NCBI RefSeq assembly: GCF_014489115.1
Contig: NZ_JACTAH010000002.1
Coordinates: forward strand, 1,408,586-1,472,585
Source of the DNA: Thauera sedimentorum
GTDB taxonomy: Bacteria > Pseudomonadota > Gammaproteobacteria > Burkholderiales > Rhodocyclaceae
DNA length: 64,000 nt
Direction of reading: 5' to 3'
The notes beneath the pieces were generated by a model. That model was not told where the DNA came from, did no database searches, and worked only from the letters and a program-made list of their open reading frames with translations. Below are positions 51,565 through 60,527 of the stretch, one piece after another. Numbering within the stretch: position 1 is the first letter of the stretch; every line of letters starts with the position of its first letter. The translations under genes and the position numbers were made by a program.

Positions 51565-52497
51565 TCAGTTGTGGTGTTCTGCCCGCCACTGCGCCAGGGC
51601 GGTGAGCGCGTCGTCCAGGTCGGTGATCACCCGCACGCCGTTCAGCCGCCGGTTCTTGCCCTGCACCGCCGCCCCGCCCGCCCACAGCGCGATGCCGGGC
51701 GGCAGCAGTTCGCGCAGCGCGTTCAGCCCGTCCACCGCCTGGCGCTGCGGATAGGCGGCGCTGAAGGACAGGGCCACCACGTCGAAGGTGCCGGCTTCGG
51801 CCGCGCTGCGGATGTCGCTCATCGGCGTCTGGGTGCCGAGGGAGACGCAGGCGGCGCCTTCGGGCACCAGGGTGGCCTCGGCCATCAGCAGGCCGAGGGC
51901 GTGCTGCTCGTCCGGGAAGGTGGTGAGCAGGATGCGCGGCCGGCCCCCCGCCACCGCCTGCGAGCCGATCGCGCTGCGCAGCACGTTCTGCACCTGCTCG
52001 GTGTACAGGTGCTCCTCAGGCACGTCGATCTCGCCGCGCAGCCAGGCATGGCCGATGCAGTCGTTGAGCGGGGCCACGGTGTCGGCAACGAAGCGCTGCA
52101 GGCCCTGCTTGAGCAGGAGTTGGTAGAGCGCGGCGCGCAGTTCGTTGCTGCGATGCAGGCGCACCAGTTGCAGCAGGGCGGCCTCGCGTTCGCTGCGCTG
52201 CGGATCGACCTCGCCCGGGCCGGCGGCGTCGAGCAGGGTCGCCAGCTCGTCGGTACTCAGCCGCACGATGGTCGATGGCCGCCTGCCCTGGTCCATCAGC
52301 CGGCGCATCAGGCGCAGCTTCTCCACCTGTGCAGACGGATAGAGGCGCTCGCCGTGGGCGTCGCGCAAGGGCGCGGGAAACCCGTAGCGGCGTTCCCAGA
52401 CCCGCAGGGTGTCCTTGGCGATGCCGGTGTCGCGTTCGACCGCGGCGATCCCCAGGGCCTGTGCGGCGGAGTTTGTGTCAAGAGCGGAGTTTGGCAT
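51565..52497 (-). CDS. MerR-family regulator with B12-binding domain (CarH/LitR-type photoreceptor)
   Basis: 310 residues. N-terminal MerR helix-turn-helix (IAAVERDTGIAKDTLRVWERRYGFP ... ERLYPSAQVEKLRLMRRLM), then a helical bundle and a cobalamin-binding Rossmann domain. The CarH ligand set is intact: Trp152, Glu162-His163 (ten and eleven residues on, as W131/E141/H142 in Thermus CarH) and His199 in DEQHALG (the E-x-H-x-x-G motif, CarH H177). CarH proteins bind DNA in the dark as adenosylcobalamin tetramers and release it in light. The ATG at 52497 touches an operator palindrome; a TTG at 52521 would place that operator inside the gene and is rejected. Divergent from folE2. Confidence 0.9.
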   Translation of the reverse strand: MPNSALDTNSAAQALGIAAVERDTGIAKDTLRVWERRYGFPAPLRDAHGERLYPSAQVEKLRLMRRLMDQGRRPSTIVRLSTDELATLLDAAGPGEVDPQRSEREAALLQLVRLHRSNELRAALYQLLLKQGLQRFVADTVAPLNDCIGHAWLRGEIDVPEEHLYTEQVQNVLRSAIGSQAVAGGRPRILLTTFPDEQHALGLLMAEATLVPEGAACVSLGTQTPMSDIRSAAEAGTFDVVALSFSAAYPQRQAVDGLNALRELLPPGIALWAGGAAVQGKNRRLNGVRVITDLDDALTALAQWRAEHHN

Positions 52498-52511
52498 TTG
52501 TCCTGGACAAA
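52497..52511. promoter_or_regulatory. Operator palindrome 1 (TTTGTCC-T-GGACAAA)
   Basis: Perfect 7-1-7 inverted repeat adjoining the MerR-family start codon and ending three bases before the folE2 -35. Binding here would block leader extension of the regulator gene and crowd the folE2 promoter. Confidence 0.75.
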
Positions 52512-52514
52512 ACG

Positions 52515-52543
52515 TTGACAACGGATTTCGTTGAAACTATCTT
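52515..52543 (+). promoter_or_regulatory. Promoter of the folE2 operon
   Basis: Perfect -35 TTGACA (52515-52520), 17-base spacer, -10 TATCTT (52538-52543, four of six). The implied leader before folE2 is about 200 bases. Operator 1 lies just upstream of the -35 and operator 2 just downstream of the start site. Confidence 0.7.
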
Positions 52544-52567
52544 AGGTTCGTCAGCGTGATTTGTCTA
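52539..52567 (-). promoter_or_regulatory. Promoter of the MerR/B12 regulator gene
   Basis: -35 TAGACA (complement of 52562-52567, five of six), 17-base spacer, -10 TAAGAT (complement of 52539-52544, four of six). Its -10 overlaps that of the folE2 promoter on the other strand, and its -35 lies within operator 2, so autoregulation is likely. Confidence 0.6.
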
Positions 52568-52574
52568 GGACAGT
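52560..52574. promoter_or_regulatory. Operator palindrome 2 (TTTGTCT-A-GGACAGT)
   Basis: Imperfect copy of the same palindrome (12 of 14 arm positions match TTTGTCC/GGACAAA). Its centre is 63 bp from that of operator 1. It covers the -35 of the regulator promoter and the early transcribed region of folE2. Confidence 0.65.
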
Positions 52575-52720
52575 GTCGGATTCTGTCGAGGGCGGCCAGG
52601 TTTTCCGCATCTGCGCAGCATCCGACCCGTTAGTCCCTGCCAGTTCCCGTGCATTCCTGCGGCGCCCGGTTCCATTTCGAGGGCGTGGACAAAGAGTGCA
52701 AAGCCTGTACCTGCCCCTGG

Positions 52721-52735
52721 ATTGTCCAGGACAAA
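52721..52735. promoter_or_regulatory. Operator palindrome 3 (ATTGTCC-A-GGACAAA)
   Basis: Third copy, 15 bases upstream of the folE2 start and 5 bases before its GGAG ribosome-binding site; the inner six bases of each arm (TTGTCC/GGACAA) pair perfectly. A lone half-site GGACAAA occurs at 52687-52693. It may act as a roadblock or mark a second promoter that I could not identify. Confidence 0.65.
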
Positions 52736-52749
52736 TAACCGGAGATGTC

Positions 52750-53550
52750 ATGAACGCGCCAGAGTCCATTTTCCTTCCCGACATCCAGGCCACCCGCGAC
52801 CACCGTGCGCTGGCGATCCAGCAGGTCGGCATCCGCGGGCTGCGCTATCCGCTGGTACTGCGCCGCGCGGACGGCGAGGCGGCGGGCACGGTCGCCACCC
52901 TGGCGCTGACCGTGGGCCTGCCGGCCGATCAGAAGGGCACGCACATGTCGCGCTTCGTCGAACTGATGGAAGCAGACCGCGGCGCGCTGGACCTGTCGGG
53001 CCTGCGGGCGATGTTTTCCGAGATGCTCGCCCGCCTCGATGCCGACGCGGGACGGCTCGAGGCCGCCTTCCCCTGGTTCATCCGCAAGCGCGCTCCGGTG
53101 TCCGGCGTGGAGAGCCTGCTCGACATCGACGCCGCGCTGCGCGTGGAGCAATGCGCCGGCGGCCGGCCGCAGACCACGCTGCGGGTGGTGGTGCCGGTGA
53201 CCAGCCTGTGTCCGTGCTCCAAGGAGATCTCCGCCTACGGGGCGCACAACCAGCGCTCGAAGATCACCCTGGAGGTGACGCTGCGCGAGGACATGAGCTT
53301 CGAGGAGCTGGTGCGCATCGCCGAGGAGGAAGCTTCCTGCGAACTGTTCGGCCTGCTCAAGCGCCCGGACGAGAAGTGGGTGACCGAGCGCGCCTATGAC
53401 AACCCGAAGTTCGTCGAAGACCTGGTGCGCGACATCGCCCTGCGCCTGCGCGCGGAGCCGCGCATCGCCGCCTGGCAGGTGGCCTCCGAGAACTTCGAGT
53501 CCATCCACAACCATTCCGCCTGGGCCACCGTGTCCGGCGCGAACGACTGA
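52750..53550 (+). CDS. folE2: GTP cyclohydrolase FolE2 (type IB)
   Basis: Converts GTP to dihydroneopterin triphosphate, entry to folate and pterin synthesis; type IB enzymes are less zinc-dependent than FolE. 266 residues: DHRALAIQQVGIRGLRYPL, the catalytic VPVTSLCPCSKEISAYGAHNQRS with the metal Cys, DMSFEELVRIAEEEASCELFGLLKRPDEK and ENFESIHNHSAWA. GGAG precedes the ATG by five bases. First gene of the operon opposite the B12 regulator and preceded by three operators. Confidence 0.95.
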   Translation: MNAPESIFLPDIQATRDHRALAIQQVGIRGLRYPLVLRRADGEAAGTVATLALTVGLPADQKGTHMSRFVELMEADRGALDLSGLRAMFSEMLARLDADAGRLEAAFPWFIRKRAPVSGVESLLDIDAALRVEQCAGGRPQTTLRVVVPVTSLCPCSKEISAYGAHNQRSKITLEVTLREDMSFEELVRIAEEEASCELFGLLKRPDEKWVTERAYDNPKFVEDLVRDIALRLRAEPRIAAWQVASENFESIHNHSAWATVSGAND

Positions 53551-53568
53551 TCACCAGTGGGGGCAAGC

Positions 53569-54900
53569 ATGAAGATGGGCGAACTGGACGGAATCGTCAC
53601 CGGCGGCCGCCGGCGGATCGCGGTGGTCGGCTCGGGCATCGCCGGCCTGGCCAGCGCGCTGCTGCTCTCGCGTCGCGAGCGCGTCACCCTGTACGAGGCC
53701 GACGGGCGCCTGGGCGGGCACAGCAACACCGTGGACATCGAGGTCGAAGGGCGCCGGCTGGCGGTCGATACCGGCTTCCTGGTGTTCAACCGGCGAACCT
53801 ACCCTGAGCTGTGCGCGCTGTTCGCCATGCTCGGGGTGGAGGCGGTGGAGAGCGAGATGTCCTTCTCGGTGAGCCTTGCGGAGCCGGAACTGGAGTGGGC
53901 GGGTTCCGATCTCGGCACCCTGTTCGCGCAGCCGCGCAACCTGCTGCGCCCGGCCTTCCTCGGCATGCTGAAGGACATCATGCGCTTCAACGCCGCGGCC
54001 ACCCGGGCCGCTGCCGGCACCGAAGCGGTGCCCGACATGGCCTTGGGCGATTACCTCGACCGCCATCGCTACGGCGCCGCCTTCCGTCACTGGTATCTGC
54101 TGCCGATGGCGGCTGCGATCTGGTCCTGCCCCACGCGCACCATGCTCGACTACCCCTTCGCCACCTTTGCGCGCTTCTGCCACAACCACGGCCTGCTGCA
54201 GATATTCGACCGCCCGCAGTGGATGACGGTGCGTGGTGGCGCGCGCGAGTACGTGCGCCGCATAGCCGCCCAGCTCGACGACGTGCGCACCGCCACCCCG
54301 GTGCTGGGCGTGGAACGTGGCGCCGACGGCGTACGCCTGCACACGCGTGGCGGCGGTGAGTTGTACGACGAGGTGGTGTTCGCCTGTCACAGCGACCAGG
54401 CGCTGCGCATCCTCGGTGAGGCCGCGAGCGCCGAGGAGCGCGCGATCCTGGGTGCGGTGCGCTACCAGGACAACCGCGCGGTGCTGCATACCGACCCCGC
54501 GTTGCTGCCGCGTCGGCCCAAGGTGTGGTCGGCCTGGAACTACCTGGCCGGGCGGGGCGAGGCGGCAGAACGGCCGGTGTCGGTGAGCTACCTGCTCAAC
54601 CGCCTGCAGCCGCTGGGCGTGGACACCCCGGTGGTGGTCTCGCTCAATCCCTTCGACGAGCCTGCCGCGGACAAGGTGCTGCGCACCATCGACTACGCCC
54701 ACCCGGTGTTCGACAGTGCGGCCATCGCCGCGCAGGCCCGGCTGCATGAGATCCAGGGCGTGCGGCGCACCTGGTTTGCCGGCGCATGGACCGGCTACGG
54801 CTTCCACGAGGACGGCCTCAGGTCCGCGCTGGCGGTGGCCGGCGCACTTGGCGCCGGCATTCCCTGGCGGGCGGAAGAGCGCGAGAAGGTGGCGTCATGA
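53569..54900 (+). CDS. FAD-dependent amine-oxidase-like protein (COG2907)
   Basis: 443-residue flavoprotein with the N-terminal FAD motif IAVVGSGIAGLASALLLSRRERVTLYEADGRLGGHSNTV and C-terminal WFAGAWTGYGFHEDGLRSALAVAGAL. The COG2907 family travels with DUF1365 and Cfa-type methyltransferase genes; homologues are in light- or singlet-oxygen-induced regulons and have been linked to unusual fatty-acid synthesis. ATG 53569 is preferred over a GTG at 53557. The stop overlaps the DUF1365 start. Confidence 0.9.
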   Translation: MKMGELDGIVTGGRRRIAVVGSGIAGLASALLLSRRERVTLYEADGRLGGHSNTVDIEVEGRRLAVDTGFLVFNRRTYPELCALFAMLGVEAVESEMSFSVSLAEPELEWAGSDLGTLFAQPRNLLRPAFLGMLKDIMRFNAAATRAAAGTEAVPDMALGDYLDRHRYGAAFRHWYLLPMAAAIWSCPTRTMLDYPFATFARFCHNHGLLQIFDRPQWMTVRGGAREYVRRIAAQLDDVRTATPVLGVERGADGVRLHTRGGGELYDEVVFACHSDQALRILGEAASAEERAILGAVRYQDNRAVLHTDPALLPRRPKVWSAWNYLAGRGEAAERPVSVSYLLNRLQPLGVDTPVVVSLNPFDEPAADKVLRTIDYAHPVFDSAAIAAQARLHEIQGVRRTWFAGAWTGYGFHEDGLRSALAVAGALGAGIPWRAEEREKVAS

Positions 54901-55685
54901 ACGTGGCCCGCTACCGTCCGTCGCTTGACCCCGCGGTGTGCTTCGGTGCGGTGATGCATGAACGCGCGGGCGAGGCCCGCAACCGCTTCGTCTATCGCCT
55001 GGCCTTCCTGCGCGTGCCCCTGTCCGGCTGGGACGCGCTCAAGGTGCCGCTGCTCGCGGTGGACCGGCCGGGCATCTTCAGCCTGCGCGCCGCCGATCAT
55101 GGCGCGCGCGACGGCAGCCCGTTGCTGCCGTGGATACGCGAACTGCTCGCCGCCCACGGGCTGGCGGCCACCTGCGACGGCGAGGTGGTGCTGCAGACCA
55201 TGCCGCGCCTGTTCGGCTACGTGTTCAATCCGGTCAGCTTCTGGTTCTGCCACGATCGCGACGGCCGCCTGCGGGTGGTGCTGGCCGAGGTCAGCAACAC
55301 CTTCGGCGAACGCCACAACTACCTGGTGCATCACCACGATCTGCGCCCGATCGAGTTCGGCGACGAGCTCTCCGCGCGCAAGGTCTTCCACGTCTCGCCC
55401 TTCTTCCCGGTGCGCGGCGAATACCGCTTCCGCTTCGCCTCGGCGGGCGAGGTGCATTCGGTACGGATCGACTACTGGGACGGTGGCGAATGCCGCCTGG
55501 CCACCCGGGTCGGTGGACGTGCGCAGCCGCTGTCGGGCACGTCCATGACGCGCTGGCTGGCCCAGTTCCCCCTGATGACGCTGGGCGTGACCGCCCGCAT
55601 CCACTGGCAGGCGCTGCGGCTGTGGCGCAAGCGCGCCGCCTTTTTCCGCAAGCCCCTGCCACCGCTCGAGGAAACCACGCGATGA
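54897..55685 (+). CDS. DUF1365 protein
   Basis: 262 residues with the family sequence: CFGAVMHERAGEARNRFVYRLAFLRVPL, TMPRLFGYVFNPVSFWFCHDRDG, AEVSNTFGERHNYLVH and ARKVFHVSPFFPVRGEYRFRF. Biochemical function is unsettled; DUF1365 genes almost always sit between COG2907 and cfa-like genes. It overlaps both neighbours by four bases. Confidence 0.9.
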   Translation: MNVARYRPSLDPAVCFGAVMHERAGEARNRFVYRLAFLRVPLSGWDALKVPLLAVDRPGIFSLRAADHGARDGSPLLPWIRELLAAHGLAATCDGEVVLQTMPRLFGYVFNPVSFWFCHDRDGRLRVVLAEVSNTFGERHNYLVHHHDLRPIEFGDELSARKVFHVSPFFPVRGEYRFRFASAGEVHSVRIDYWDGGECRLATRVGGRAQPLSGTSMTRWLAQFPLMTLGVTARIHWQALRLWRKRAAFFRKPLPPLEETTR

Positions 55686-56926
55686 ATGCCCTGGACACCA
55701 CCCTGGCGCGCGAACTGCCGCGCCCCGATCTGCACCTGCTCGCGCGCCAGCCGCGCGCCACCCGCCTGGCGCTGGAGATGCTGCACCGCCTGGATGGCGG
55801 CGCGCTGGCGCTGGAACTGCCGGACGGCGCCACGCTGCGCCTCGGTCATGGCCCGCTCGCGGCCCACTGGCGGGTGCGTGAGCACGCGGTGTTCGACGCC
55901 GTGCTGGCGCGCGGCGACATCGGCCTGGGCGAGACCTGGATGGAAGGCGGGTGGGACACCGACCAGCTCACCGGCCTGCTCGGCCTACTGGCCGCCAACC
56001 GCGCGCAGCTCGGCCAGGCGGTGTACGGCCGGCGCTGGCGCCTGCTCACCCACCGGCTCGGCCACCTGCTGCGCGCCAACACCCGTAGCGGCGCGCGGCG
56101 CAACATCGAGGCGCACTACGACCTGGGCAACGACTTCTACGCCCTGTGGCTGGACCCGACCATGAGCTATTCGGCCGCGCTCTTCGCCACGCCGGACGAA
56201 GCGCTGGAGGATGCCCAGCGCCGCAAGTACCGCCGCGTGCTGCAACGCCTGGGTGCGCGCCCCGGGCAGACCATCCTGGAGGTCGGCTGCGGCTGGGGCG
56301 GCTTTGCCGAGGTGGCGGCCACCGAGTTCGGCTGCAAGGTGCTCGGCCTGACCCTGTCGCCGGCGCAGCTCGAATGGGCGCGTGCGCGCGCCGAACGCGG
56401 CGGCTGGCAGGCCATGGCGAACTTCGAGCTGTGCGACTACCGCGACGTGCGCGGCCAGTACGACCACATCGTCTCCATCGAGATGATCGAGGCGGTCGGC
56501 GAGCGCTTCTGGCCGGTGTATTTCGAGCGCCTCGCCGGCCTGCTGCGCCCCGGCGGGGGCTGCGTGGTCCAGGCCATCACCATCGCCGACGAGCTGTTCG
56601 CGCGCTACCGGCGCGGCACCGACTTCATCCAGCAGTACATCTTCCCCGGCGGCATGCTGCCCTCGCCGCAGGCCATCGAGCGCCAGGCCGCGGGCGCGGG
56701 ACTCGCGGTGGCGGACGACTTCGCCTTCGGCGGCGATTACGCGCGCACCCTGCGGCACTGGCACGAGGCCTTCGTCGCACGTATCGGCGAGGTGCGCGCG
56801 CAAGGCTATTCCGAGCGCTTCGTGCGCATGTGGCGCTTCTACCTGTCCTACTGCGAGGCGGGCTTCCTGTGCGGCGACATCGACGTGCGCCATGTCGAGC
56901 TGCGCCACGCGCGGAGTGCCGGGTGA
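55682..56926 (+). CDS. Cyclopropane-fatty-acyl-phospholipid synthase family methyltransferase
   Basis: 414 residues. SAM-dependent enzyme acting on unsaturated acyl chains of membrane phospholipids: NIEAHYDLGNDFYALWLDPTMSYSAALF, the SAM loop ILEVGCGWGGFAEVAA, IVSIEMIEAVGERFWPVYF and FIFPGGMLPS-like QQYIFPGGMLPS. In COG2907-DUF1365 clusters the homologue may make methylated or furan fatty acids rather than cyclopropanes, so the exact product is open. Stop and next start overlap (TGATG). Confidence 0.92.
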   Translation: MNALDTTLARELPRPDLHLLARQPRATRLALEMLHRLDGGALALELPDGATLRLGHGPLAAHWRVREHAVFDAVLARGDIGLGETWMEGGWDTDQLTGLLGLLAANRAQLGQAVYGRRWRLLTHRLGHLLRANTRSGARRNIEAHYDLGNDFYALWLDPTMSYSAALFATPDEALEDAQRRKYRRVLQRLGARPGQTILEVGCGWGGFAEVAATEFGCKVLGLTLSPAQLEWARARAERGGWQAMANFELCDYRDVRGQYDHIVSIEMIEAVGERFWPVYFERLAGLLRPGGGCVVQAITIADELFARYRRGTDFIQQYIFPGGMLPSPQAIERQAAGAGLAVADDFAFGGDYARTLRHWHEAFVARIGEVRAQGYSERFVRMWRFYLSYCEAGFLCGDIDVRHVELRHARSAG

Positions 56927-57462
56927 TGCGCCGCGCCCGCAGCATCCTGCTGGTCTGCGCGCTGCTGTTCGTGCCGGCGGCCGGCGCCTCGCAAGGCCTG
57001 CCGGCGGAGACGCTCGCCTATGCGCCGCAGATGCGTCCCCTGGGCGCCGGGCCGATGCGCTGGTTCGGCCTGCGCCTGTACGACGCCGAGCTGTGGGTGA
57101 GCGGCGAGGGCTACGCGCCGCAGCGCCCCCACGCGCTCGCCCTGCGCTACCAGCGCGCGATCGACGCCGGGCGCCTGGTCGACACCAGCATCGACGAGAT
57201 GCGCCGCCTCGGCGCCGGCGACGAGACGCGCCTGGCGCGCTGGCGGGAAGAACTGGCGCGCGCCTTCCCCTCGGTGCAGCCGGACGAGCGCATCGTCGGT
57301 CTGCACCTGCCGGGCCGCGGGGCGGTTTTCTGGCACCAGGGGCGGCTGACCGCCGAGATCGACGACGCCGAACTGGCGCGCCACTTCTTCGCCATCTGGC
57401 TGGACGAGCGCACCCGCGAGCCCGCGCTGCGCGCCCGCCTGCTCGGTGAGGCCGCGCCGTGA
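56926..57462 (+). CDS. Chalcone isomerase-like periplasmic protein
   Basis: 178 residues with a cleavable signal peptide (about 1-21) and the bacterial chalcone-isomerase-like fold: MRWFGLRLYDAELWVSGEG, LALRYQRAIDAGRLVDTSIDEMRRLG, GLHLPGRGAVFWHQG and FFAIWLDERTREPALRARLLG. Bacterial members lack the flavonoid catalytic residues and are thought to bind fatty acids. Overlaps the following MFS gene by four bases. Confidence 0.82.
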   Translation: MRRARSILLVCALLFVPAAGASQGLPAETLAYAPQMRPLGAGPMRWFGLRLYDAELWVSGEGYAPQRPHALALRYQRAIDAGRLVDTSIDEMRRLGAGDETRLARWREELARAFPSVQPDERIVGLHLPGRGAVFWHQGRLTAEIDDAELARHFFAIWLDERTREPALRARLLGEAAP

Positions 57463-58745
57463 GCGGCCGCCTCGCCCTGGCCCTGGACGCGCCCACCCGC
57501 GGCGGCCTGCTGGCCTACGGCGCGCTCGGCCTGCCGCTGGCCTTCGCCGCGCTGCCGATCTACGTGCATGTGCCCAAGCTCTATGCCGACGGCCTCGGCC
57601 TGCCGTTGGCCGCGGTCGGTGCGGTGCTGCTCGCGGTGCGCGTGGTCGATGGCCTCACCGATCCGCTGCTCGGCTGGGCGAGCGACCGCTGGGCGAGCCG
57701 GCCGCAGTGGGTGATCGGCGCGCTGCCGGCGCTGGCGCTGGGGCTGATGGCCTTGCTCGCCCCGCCGGCCGGCGCCGGCCTGGCCTGGTTGGCGCTCGCC
57801 CTGGTGGCGGTCACCCTGGCCTGGTCGGCGGCCAGCATCGCCTATCACGCCTGGGGCGCGGAGCTGCAGGCCAGTACGCACGAGCGCACCCGGATCACCG
57901 CGGTGCGCGAAGGCTTTGCGCTGGCCGGGGTGATGCTCGCCGCGGCCCTGCCGTCCATGCTGGCGGCCGACGAAGTGGCGGGCCTGGCGCGCCTGGCCTG
58001 GCTGTTTCCGCTGCTGCTCGCCCTGTTTGCCGGCTGGACCCTGCTGCGCGCGCCGCGCGCACCCCGCCAGCCTGCGCGCCAGGCGCTGTGGGCCGGGCTG
58101 GCGGCCGCGCTCGCGCACCGGCCGTTCCGTCGCCTGCTCACGGTGTTCGCGGCCAATGGCATCGCCGCGGCGATCCCCTCGGTGTGCGTGCTGTTCTTCG
58201 TCGCCGACGTGCTGCAGGCGGAGTCCTCTGCCGGCCTGTTCCTGGTGATCTACTTCGCCGCCGGCGCGGCCAGCCTGCCCGCGTGGGTGGCGCTCGCCGC
58301 GCGTGTCGGCAAGCGGCGCGCCTGGGGCGCGGCCATGGTGCTGGCGATGGCGGTGTTCGTCTGGGCCTGGACCCTGGAGGGCGGGCAGACCGTCGCCTTC
58401 GCGCTGATCTGCCTGTTGTCCGGCGCGGCACTCGGTGCGGACCTCGCCCTGCCGCCGGCCATGCTGGCCGACCAGCTGGCGCGCTATGCCGGGCGCGGCG
58501 CTTCGCCCGCGGGGGCGTGGTTCGGCTGGTGGAACCTGGTCACCAAGGCCAACCTGGCGCTCGCCGCCGGGCTGGCGCTGCCGCTGCTCGGCTGGCTGGG
58601 CTATGAACCCGGCGCGCGCGACGCCGCCGCGCTGGGCGCGCTGGCGGCGGTGTATGCCCTGCTGCCGGTGGTGCTCAAGGGCGGCGCGCTGGCCCTGCTG
58701 CTCGCCTGGCGCGGTGAACTGGAATCCGAGGGAGAAATGCGATGA
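57459..58745 (+). CDS. MFS transporter (GPH/MFS_2 type)
   Basis: 428 residues, about 12 membrane helices, GTG start overlapping the previous stop. The loop DGLTDPLLGWASDRW between helices 2 and 3 is the MFS signature, in the form seen in the glycoside-pentoside-hexuronide/lysophospholipid symporter branch. In this cluster a lipid-related cargo is plausible, but the substrate is not determinable from sequence. Confidence 0.87.
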   Translation: MSGRLALALDAPTRGGLLAYGALGLPLAFAALPIYVHVPKLYADGLGLPLAAVGAVLLAVRVVDGLTDPLLGWASDRWASRPQWVIGALPALALGLMALLAPPAGAGLAWLALALVAVTLAWSAASIAYHAWGAELQASTHERTRITAVREGFALAGVMLAAALPSMLAADEVAGLARLAWLFPLLLALFAGWTLLRAPRAPRQPARQALWAGLAAALAHRPFRRLLTVFAANGIAAAIPSVCVLFFVADVLQAESSAGLFLVIYFAAGAASLPAWVALAARVGKRRAWGAAMVLAMAVFVWAWTLEGGQTVAFALICLLSGAALGADLALPPAMLADQLARYAGRGASPAGAWFGWWNLVTKANLALAAGLALPLLGWLGYEPGARDAAALGALAAVYALLPVVLKGGALALLLAWRGELESEGEMR

Positions 58746-59275
58746 GACGACTGCTGGCGATGTTCGCGCTGCTGGCCGCCCTGAGCGGCTGCGCGACGGT
58801 GGAGGTGGGAGAGTACGCAATGGAGAAGCCGACGCTCGATCTGCGCGAGTATTTCAACGGCACCCTGGACGCCCATGGCATCTTCCAGGACCGCAAGGGC
58901 CGGGTGGTGAAGCGCTTCCATGTGCTGATCGAGGCGCGCTGGGAGGGCGACACCGGCACCCTGGACGAACACTTCACCTATTCGGACGGCAGCACCCAGC
59001 GCCGGGTGTGGACCCTCACCCGCCAGCCCGACGGCAGCTACCTCGGGCGCGCCGACGACGTGGTCGGCGAGGCGGTGGGCGAGCTCGCCGGCAATGCGCT
59101 GCGCTGGCGTTACGTGCTGGCCCTGCCGGTGGACGGCAAGGTGTATCACGTCGATTTCGACGACTGGATGTTCCTGATGGACGAGCGCGTCATGCTCAAC
59201 CGTTCGGTGATGAGCAAGTGGGGCTTCCGCCTGGGCGAGGTTACGCTGTCCTTCTACAAACGGCCGGAACGATGA
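58742..59275 (+). CDS. DUF3833 lipoprotein
   Basis: 177 residues. Signal with lipobox Leu-Ser-Gly-Cys near residues 15-18, then the DUF3833 body: LREYFNGTLDAHGIFQDRKGRVVKRFHVLIEARW, HFTYSDGSTQRRVWTL, DWMFLMDERVMLNRSVMSKWGFRLGEVTLSF. Function unknown; it recurs in COG2907/cfa clusters. Overlaps neighbours by four bases on each side. Confidence 0.88.
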   Translation: MRRLLAMFALLAALSGCATVEVGEYAMEKPTLDLREYFNGTLDAHGIFQDRKGRVVKRFHVLIEARWEGDTGTLDEHFTYSDGSTQRRVWTLTRQPDGSYLGRADDVVGEAVGELAGNALRWRYVLALPVDGKVYHVDFDDWMFLMDERVMLNRSVMSKWGFRLGEVTLSFYKRPER

Positions 59276-60072
59276 GCCTGAACACGCCGATCACCGACTG
59301 GCAGGGCCGGCGGGTGTGGCTGGTGGGGGCGTCCTCGGGCATCGGCGCCGAGCTCGCCCGCCAGCTCGCCGGCCGTGGCGCGCGCCTGGCGTTGAGCGCG
59401 CGCAATGCGGAAGGCCTGCGCGCGGTGGCAGAAGATTGCCTGCGTGCCGGCGCCGCGGACGTCCGGGTGGAGCCGGCCGACGTGACCCACAGCGGCGACC
59501 TGGCGCAGGTGCGCGACCGCCTGCTGGCCGCCTGGGGCGGCATCGACCTGGCGGTGCTCAACGCCGGCACCTACCGGCCGCTGCGCGCCTGGGAGCTGTC
59601 GCCCGAGACGGTGCGCGAGACATTGTCCGTGAACCTGCTCGGCGTCATGGACGGCGCAGCGGCGCTGGTGCCGGCGCTGCTGGCGCAGGCCGAACAAGGT
59701 CAGCCGGCGGCGCTGGCCATCGTCGGCAGCGTGGCGGGCTATGGCGGGCTGCCGCGCGCCGCGGCCTACGGGCCGTCCAAGGCGGCGCTGATCAACCTGG
59801 CCGAGTCGCTCTACCTCGACCTCGCGCCGCGCGGCGTGTCGGTGTTCCTGGTCAGCCCCGGCTTCGTCGCCACCCCGCTGACCGCGCAGAACGACTTCCA
59901 CATGCCGGCGCTGCAGACCCCGCGCCAGGCCGTCGAGGCCATGCTGCGCGGTTTCTCCGCGGGGCGTTTCGAGATCCACTTCCCGCGGCGTTTCTCGCTG
60001 GTGCTGAAGGCCCTGCGCCTGCTGCCCTACCGGCTCTACTTCGGCCTGGTGCGCCGGGCCACCGGCGCATGA
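59272..60072 (+). CDS. Short-chain dehydrogenase/reductase (SDR)
   Basis: 266 residues of the classical SDR type: NAD(P) loop VWLVGASSGIGAELARQLAGRG, LAVLNAGTY, catalytic Ser in VGSVAGYGGLPRAAAYGPSKAAL with the Tyr-x-x-x-Lys pair, and VSPGFVATPLT. Likely a lipid-modifying reductase from context. Coupled to both neighbours. Confidence 0.9.
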   Translation: MSLNTPITDWQGRRVWLVGASSGIGAELARQLAGRGARLALSARNAEGLRAVAEDCLRAGAADVRVEPADVTHSGDLAQVRDRLLAAWGGIDLAVLNAGTYRPLRAWELSPETVRETLSVNLLGVMDGAAALVPALLAQAEQGQPAALAIVGSVAGYGGLPRAAAYGPSKAALINLAESLYLDLAPRGVSVFLVSPGFVATPLTAQNDFHMPALQTPRQAVEAMLRGFSAGRFEIHFPRRFSLVLKALRLLPYRLYFGLVRRATGA

Positions 60073-60527
60073 GCATGGCGCCCGATCCGGTCGACAAGGC
60101 GCTCGACGCGGGCCTGGACCGCCTGGTCGCCTTCTACGAGACGCTGACGCCAGCCTCGCTCGCGGAGCTTGCGGCCGTGTATGCGCCGGATGCGCGCTTC
60201 AAGGACCCGTTCAACGAGGTCGCAGGCCTTGCGGCCATCGAACGTATCTTCCGTCACATGTTCGGGCAGGTCGAGGCGCCGCAATTTAGCGTCACCACGC
60301 GCCTGCGCGACGGCCGCCAGGCGATGCTGGGCTGGACCTTCGCCTTCGGTCCGCCGGCGCGGCGCATCGTCGTGCGCGGGGTCAGCCATCTGCACCTGGA
60401 CGAGCGGGGCAGGGTGGTGGAGCACCGCGACTACTGGGATGCCGCCGAGGAGCTGTACGCCAAGCTGCCGCTGATCGGCGCGCTGATGCGCTGGCTGCGC
60501 CGCCGCCTGGCCGCACCGCAGTCATGA
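60069..60527 (+). CDS. NTF2-like/SnoaL-fold protein
   Basis: 152 residues of the nuclear-transport-factor-2-like fold: [47 protein letters not shown] and [39 protein letters not shown]. Members are small enzymes or binding proteins; here it is the last of the folE2 operon and its function is not known. Confidence 0.85.

Follow-up and report, generated by a model that had tools for sequence, protein, structure and literature searches.

Paired palindromes as probable operators of a CarH-type B12-binding regulator in Thauera sedimentorum and related bacteria

Analysis of the DNA between a merR-B12 gene of the CarH/LitR type and the divergent folE2 gene of Thauera sedimentorum identified palindromes of the form TTTGTCC-N-GGACAAA, which very probably act as operators linked to the CarH-type regulator, since they lie upstream of nearly all near homologues of the regulator gene and their presence tracks that gene. 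Both the operator role and the link to this kind of regulator are well supported by sequence comparison. The fuller reading, in which the adjacent protein is an AdoCbl-binding MerR light-sensing repressor that would occupy the palindromes in the dark and release them in the light, is considered likely. The computational evidence comprises the sites, their conservation, their co-occurrence with the regulator, their spacing, the promoter-like geometry around them and the CarH signatures of the protein. Throughout, the window denotes the whole 64,000-nucleotide stretch analysed, and published work is cited for its accessible portions.

Sites, promoters and regulator in the window

A scan of the window for TTTGTCC-N-GGACAAA at up to three mismatches returned S1, S2 and S3 only (Table 1), where 0.58 matches were expected; 2 of 100 shuffled windows reached three matches at this stringency. 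The initial annotation had described three palindromes of one 7-1-7 form with no further full copy in the window. Their coordinates and the lack of other copies were confirmed, and S1 is perfect and S3 nearly so, but S2 is not the same palindrome, as only four of its seven arm pairs are complementary in the source genome; its position is nevertheless the place of a good palindrome in orthologues. S1 is the sole perfect copy genome-wide, and the one-mismatch copies are S3 and one on contig C1, which has a three-mismatch partner 75 bp away and forms the only further site pair in the source genome. The half-site GGACAAA reported at 52687-52693 does exist. As a fourth element it was rejected: it is missing at that place in all three same-genus relatives checked (L017, L018, L019) and was therefore treated as chance.

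Table 1. Features of the regulator-folE2 region, in window coordinates.
Feature	Position	Strand	Remarks
merR-B12 (carH/litR-type) regulator gene	51565..52497	-	310 aa; ATG 52497-52495
Operator site 1 (S1)	52497-52511	.	TTTGTCCTGGACAAA; perfect; motif scan; conserved in homologues
Forward -35 TTGACA, predicted folE2-operon promoter	52515..52520	+	first T 11 bp from T of S1 half TGGACA
Forward -10 TATCTT, predicted	52538..52543	+	N17 from -35
-10 TAAGAT of divergent merR promoter, predicted	52539..52544	-	base pairs common with forward -10
Operator site 2 (S2)	52560-52574	.	TTTGTCTAGGACAGT; degenerate, three mismatches; motif scan
-35 TAGACA of merR promoter, predicted	52562..52567	-	inner half of S2; N17 from minus-strand -10
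Operator site 3 (S3)	52721-52735	.	ATTGTCCAGGACAAA; one mismatch; in folE2 leader; motif scan
folE2, type I GTP cyclohydrolase	52750..53550	+	PF02649, E 1.9e-85
FAD amine oxidase-like, DUF1365, cyclopropane-fatty-acid-synthase-like methyltransferase, chalcone-isomerase-like, MFS transporter	53557..58745	+	Pfam

The first base of the merR-B12 start codon falls within S1, which ends 3 bp upstream of the forward -35; the AGGA of this site could serve as the ribosome-binding site of merR-B12. The interval between S1 and S2 holds TTGACA-N17-TATCTT, and S2 follows closely after the predicted forward start. Among 107 homologous regions with a pair at 62-77 bp, a minus-strand TAnnnT occurs at the exact position of the shared -10 in 87, and the inner half of S2 fits TnnACA in 85, its first base being T in 105. 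From this we infer a divergent promoter pair with one common -10. On the forward side, folE2 and the genes at 53557..58745 are likely one operon, judging from their close packing. Beyond the Pfam-named genes, a DUF3833-like and then an SDR-like gene were recognised by reading the translation only, and the gene set of 53557-60527 resembles the light-induced Pseudomonas cluster in the portion of PMC9758184 available.

The window regulator scores above the Pfam cut-offs for MerR_1 and B12-binding_2, with B12-binding at E 4.2e-6, below its own cut-off, and aligns with Thermus CarH (5c8d) over residues 14-298 (E 2.7e-28). It has the order of a CarH/LitR protein, a MerR HTH followed by B12-binding domains, and both CarH signatures, the Wx9EH motif at residue 152 (WLRGEIDVPEEH) and the [E/D]xHxxG cobalamin motif, as ExHxxG, at residue 197 (EQHALG). 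Both signatures occur in all 107 regulators of the paired spacing classes; they are no special mark of site-bearing loci, being present in 157 of 161 of these vs 34 of 38 site-less loci. One database source labels a 70% identical homologue 'HTH-type transcriptional repressor CarH [Thauera sp. GDN1]'. Clear orthologues were found in four of the six genomes of the genus, source genome counted, and the nearest named relatives belong to Thauera, Azoarcus, Aromatoleum and Zoogloea. By analogy with the family, the window regulator may be expected to bind AdoCbl, to form an oligomer in the dark and to dissociate in the light. Residues K28, D29, T30 and E50 were commoner in site-bearing than in site-less regulators; since the ancestry of the two sets is not the same, no conclusion on specificity residues was drawn.

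Conservation, co-occurrence and spacing of the sites

Homologue sets were drawn from the family and from named genomes, and their 142 loci were reduced to 124 non-redundant upstream regions by leaving out two loci with short upstream DNA and collapsing duplicates and near-copies. The site was present at up to one, two and three mismatches in 103, 119 and 123 of these regions, against means of 0, 0.46 and 5.8 regions (maxima 0, 8 and 58 of 124) for arm-permuted palindromes. The initial annotation had pointed to related genomes as the place to look for the motif upstream of merR-B12 homologues, and there it was indeed found, in 119 of 124 regions at up to two mismatches. A wider set of 213 regions with more distant loci gave 161 with a site at up to two mismatches, 14 at three only and 38 with none; this set was limited to loci with 150 bp or more of upstream DNA and to a single locus for each distinct protein string, so a truncated copy counts as distinct and at least one genome appears twice (G462, as L214 and L294). 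Of the 38 site-less regulators, 25 are less than 45% identical and 13 are not, and no shared palindrome stood out in front of them.

Presence of the motif was closely associated with presence of the gene. Exact TTGTCYWGGACAA occurred in 57 of the 59 family genomes bearing the regulator (matches up to E 1e-40) vs 11 of the 91 without it, with a Fisher p of 1.7e-27 that ignores ancestry, and the motif tracked the regulator gene exactly in 17 of the 21 genera containing both kinds of genome. Nine of the 11 regulator-less genomes were seen in a usable context (G105 and G139 left out). Three matches lie inside dTDP-sugar epimerase-like coding sequence and one by an rmlA-like gene, as read from translations with no family search; G057 has recurrent copies, G061 a site next to folE2 at a contig end, and G008, G050 and G132 have copies without explanation. 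At L193, L199 and L200, in genomes without the regulator, exact TTGTCCWGGACAA stands within dTDP-4-dehydrorhamnose epimerase-like sequence (FVQDNHS), and such coding copies are a trap for motif scans.

The spacing of S1 and S2 is strongly restricted. Among 123 pairs at 35-100 bp, 94 are spaced by 62-64 bp and 22 by 72-77 bp (116 of 123), while 65-71 bp never occurs; the remainder lie at 42 bp (three, one genome twice), 52 bp (one), 58 bp (two) and 86 bp (one). These counts take the first two sites at up to three mismatches or with a score above 10, so pairs with a weak member may be missed. The 63 bp first given for the window was confirmed, and the accompanying remark on helical turns is better borne out than could be expected. 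Phase coherence was R 0.90 at 10.5 bp and greatest at a period of 11.0 bp (R 0.92), falling to R 0.56 over the distinct spacing values alone, with 52 and 58 bp out of phase; the spacing data do not discriminate between a tetramer on both sites, RNA polymerase contact and a gained repeat unit. On a tree of the 107 regulators whose loci have a 62-64 or 72-77 bp pair, some of its branches being long (e.g. L207), at least five changes between spacing classes were counted, three of them forced by well-supported branches.

S2 follows 22 bp after the start of the -10 in 56 of 64 short-class and 17 of 20 long-class regions, and the -35 begins 18 bp from the start of S1 in 48 of 64 short-class and 29 bp in 15 of 20 long-class regions. 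Since the distance from -10 to S2 is constant and that from S1 to -35 varies, the promoter keeps its place relative to S2, and it is S1 that shifts by one turn. The site matrix was built from sites chosen by mismatch, which inflates column conservation, and a promoter-anchored count served as a check on this. In the 112 of 213 regions with exactly one TTGAC-N18-TAnnnT, the outer S1 half TGTC stands at -16 in 69 and at -27 in 18, the S2 TGTC at +47 in 82, and GACA at +54 in 94 and at -9 in 69, the median at other offsets being 0.

At least three sites are present in 53 of the 213 regions. Distances from S2 to S3 cluster around 150, 160 and 170 bp (R 0.64 at 10.5 bp, 36 thinned cases), which hints at S3 as a further phased site, although the leaders concerned are related. 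The same palindrome was also seen at two distant MerR-B12 homologues of 32-35% identity, L214 (G462) and L217 (G392), as pairs 42 bp or four helical turns apart; the search for further members of this group covered the order of G392, three genomes only.

Relation to known operators and alternative explanations

According to the published accounts, in the parts accessible, CarH operators are tandem 11-bp nnnnTnnACAn repeats including a promoter element, and dark Thermus CarH binds three contiguous 11-bp repeats (PMC9304148, PMC8156234). The initial annotation had compared a tetramer holding two separate sites with CarH in the dark, a likeness that the contiguous Thermus repeats contradict. Its statement that the arms differ from TGTACA-type sites is right for the window sites, but the arms are not foreign to CarH, as the half-site TGGACA fits TnnACA. 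In the 63-bp class, window included, a step of 11 bp, as known for CarH repeats, separates the T of this S1 half from the first T of TTGACA. The CarH-like DNA-reading head is probably conserved, to judge from these half-sites.

The palindromes could then belong to an ordinary CarH direct-repeat operator, in which a tandem 11-bp TnnACA array (half of S1 plus the -35, with an extra unit in some species) is read, the dyad is incidental and the step from 63 to 74 bp reflects one repeat gained or lost. Scored at S1 and S2, two units in register were indeed found in the 63-bp class (S1 half in 50 of 66, -35 in 38 of 66), a further in-register TnnACA is present in 6 of 14 regions with 74-bp spacing, though all six are one clade, the best-fitting spacing period is 11.0 bp, and the published layout likewise has the -35 inside one of the repeats (PMC9304148). 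However, the -35 fit stands 12 bp from the S1 half in the 64-bp class (8 of 16) and 23 bp in the 75-bp class (3 of 4), and at S2 a second TnnACA in 11-bp register occurs in less than 20% of regions in every class. The outer halves of S1 and S2, which fit neither a repeat register nor a promoter element, show conservation of about the same strength as the inner ones (outer TGTC of S1 in 85 of 112 regions, outer GACA of S2 in 94 of 112), so that conservation appears to speak against direct repeats without need of the dyad. We regard the direct-repeat explanation as unlikely but credible.

Three further explanations carry less weight. S1 could be an activator-like or RNA-polymerase-contact site, the 11-bp steps phasing the regulator with polymerase and not S1 with S2; it does lie just upstream of the -35 and shifts by 11 bp while the distance from promoter to S2 stays constant. 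Activators such as CRP behave alike, their positions changing in steps of a turn upstream of the promoter. According to the accessible part of PMC5241685, a MerR relative in Vibrio cholerae can suppress genes or enhance them. Against this stand the repressor positions of S2, downstream of the start, and of the half-sites resembling a -35, as well as the description of PmlR2, CarH and CarA as repressors in the available text of PMC9758184 and PMC8156234, and we hold an activating S1 to be improbable. That a regulator other than the MerR-B12 protein acts on the palindromes is more improbable still: the copies in 11 of 91 genomes without MerR-B12 would suit it, and the operator role is itself deduced from sequence, but the co-occurrence (57 of 59 vs 11 of 91, with 17 of 21 mixed genera exact) and the presence of sites next to the regulator gene in 119 of 124 regions argue otherwise. 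Chance palindromes in an intergenic region, for which the weakness of S2 in the window and the shuffled windows with three matches could be cited, have a negligible probability given the conservation and fixed geometry across homologues, and were rejected on the 119 of 124 upstream regions with a site and the promoter-anchored positions of the half-sites.

For the preferred reading, operators of a light-sensing CarH-type repressor, we infer binding of the palindromes by the regulator, activity of both promoters and cooperation on the same face, with dark repression and light release taken from the family. In the dark, the AdoCbl-loaded regulator would occupy S1 and S2 from one and the same side of the helix. 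S1 would abut the -35 of the folE2 operon and cover the translation start region of merR, and S2 would lie just past the folE2-operon start and contain the -35 of the divergent merR promoter, so that with both sites occupied the two promoters, sharing one -10, would be shut. Light would break the Co-C bond and take the oligomer apart, the sites would be emptied, and the regulator together with a light-stress operon (FolE2, FAD enzyme, fatty-acid modifying enzyme) would be expressed. At other loci, photolyases/cryptochromes, DUF3429, lipocalin and Aer-like chemoreceptors would be controlled by copies of these sites.

That one tetramer holds S1 and S2 together is a hypothesis; RNA polymerase contact or the gain of an 11-bp repeat unit would also yield 11-bp steps. 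In its most specific form, which we put forward tentatively and hold to be somewhat doubtful, a CarH-type repressor would clamp the phased palindromes so that a loop, six or seven turns long (four turns in the two distant relatives), encloses back-to-back promoters with a shared -10. Each palindrome would block one promoter from upstream and stand as a roadblock downstream of the other, and both would be opened by light. If true, the reading of a dyad by a dimer would be a way of binding DNA undescribed for AdoCbl-dependent CarH in the accessible parts of the literature found. The natural series of 62-64 and 72-77 bp spacings is a ready-made test of distant-site bridging by CarH proteins, and such a compact, light-released divergent switch could be a possible optogenetic part.

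CarH of Thermus thermophilus, Bacillus megaterium and Myxococcales resembles the window regulator in architecture and in both AdoCbl signatures, and its TnnACA half-site and 11-bp -35 register are shared by the 63-bp class (PMC9304148, PMC8156234, in part). In contrast, CarH operators as described there consist of three to four 11-bp repeats in direct succession and lie at carotenoid genes, whereas near-perfect 15-bp palindromes in phased pairs are found here. In the accessible account of the Pseudomonas class II LitR proteins PplR1/PmlR2, two sites likewise bracket a sigma-70-like promoter, at the -35 and between start and ATG, with a PmlR2 footprint of about -54 to +37, and the light-induced genes form a similar set (photolyase, FAD enzyme, fatty-acid enzyme, folE) (PMC9758184). 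Their operator T(G/A)TACA-N12-TGTA(C/T)A differs in sequence and internal layout from the palindromes, and the window sites do not conform to it. TGTACA-N12-TGTACA at zero to one mismatch was absent from 16 class-level homologue regions, where all matches had two to three mismatches, and a scan of 369 genomes for TGTACA-type pairs gave a tandem repeat in G711 only, which says nothing on the Pseudomonas spacing. PmlR2 is moreover thought, in the same source, to be AdoCbl-independent and to answer to a LOV protein (PMC9758184), whereas the paired-class proteins keep both AdoCbl signatures.

The CarA operator of Myxococcus xanthus also has a perfect inverted repeat upstream of the -35; that repeat decays in related bacteria and was not regarded as the element recognised, and for Cystobacter/Myxococcus inverted repeats were suggested not to be what the protein reads (PMC9304148, accessible text), whereas the dyad is the most conserved feature here. 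Class III LitR of Burkholderia multivorans, also a betaproteobacterial LitR homologue, is said in the available part of PMC6739363 to need a chromophore other than B12. Neither the motif TTTGTCC-N-GGACAAA in several spellings nor an operator for a betaproteobacterial AdoCbl-type CarH was found in the literature searched, a search mostly without subscription papers and hence not proof of novelty. Judged by the literature found, the conserved dyad, the phased pair, the half-sites doubling as -35 elements and the predicted regulon are apparently new.

Predicted regulon away from merR

A sequence-defined operator for a large betaproteobacterial group of B12 light sensors would make their regulons readable from genomes. 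Sites away from merR were viewed in 25 contexts of regulator-bearing genomes, namely the C1 locus of the source genome and 24 picked by hand among the matches listed, and 16 of the 25 had nameable flanking genes. Assigned mostly by Pfam, these encode photolyases/cryptochromes (L171, L174, L179, L181), an FAD enzyme (L203), DUF2189 (L204), PAS or 4HB chemoreceptors (L087, L175, L182, L191) and PAS-LytTR regulators (L166, L169). Reading of the translation was used for some members of the other groups: DUF3429 (L174 and L184 so read, and L181), lipocalin (L179 so read, and L175), SDR (L203 so read, and L179) and fasciclin proteins (L183 so read, and L167 and L170). L168 reads as DUF3429-like, L178 is an epimerase-like coding match, and L172, L173, L176, L177, L180, L189 and L190 are contexts without a gene name.

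On this basis the predicted regulon would comprise photolyases, DUF3429, lipocalin, FolE2 and Aer-like chemoreceptors. CarH targets carotenoid genes in the accessible literature, whereas folE2, photolyase and chemoreceptor genes are the predicted targets here, with no carotenoid gene among those named, as seen without a dedicated search. A half-site resembling a -35 with an N17 -10 was noted at seven sites, in 5 of 23 loci away from merR, a count with no shuffled control; for the rest of this 23-locus scan, six had a promoter-like element elsewhere and 12 had none above the cut.

The second site pair of the source genome (L087; G000:C1:1067203 and 1067278, 75 bp apart) precedes an Aer-like PAS chemoreceptor gene and follows genes that read as chromate transporters. 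Sites in G090 (L175) and G047 (L182) likewise have a PAS chemoreceptor as neighbour, and one in G096 (L191) has a 4HB chemoreceptor. Light control of the Aer-like chemoreceptors is thereby predicted, which would be a link from a B12 photoreceptor to taxis. In G038 (L166) and G095 (L169), PAS-LytTR regulators stand next to perfect copies of the site, a neighbourhood that suggests a regulatory cascade.
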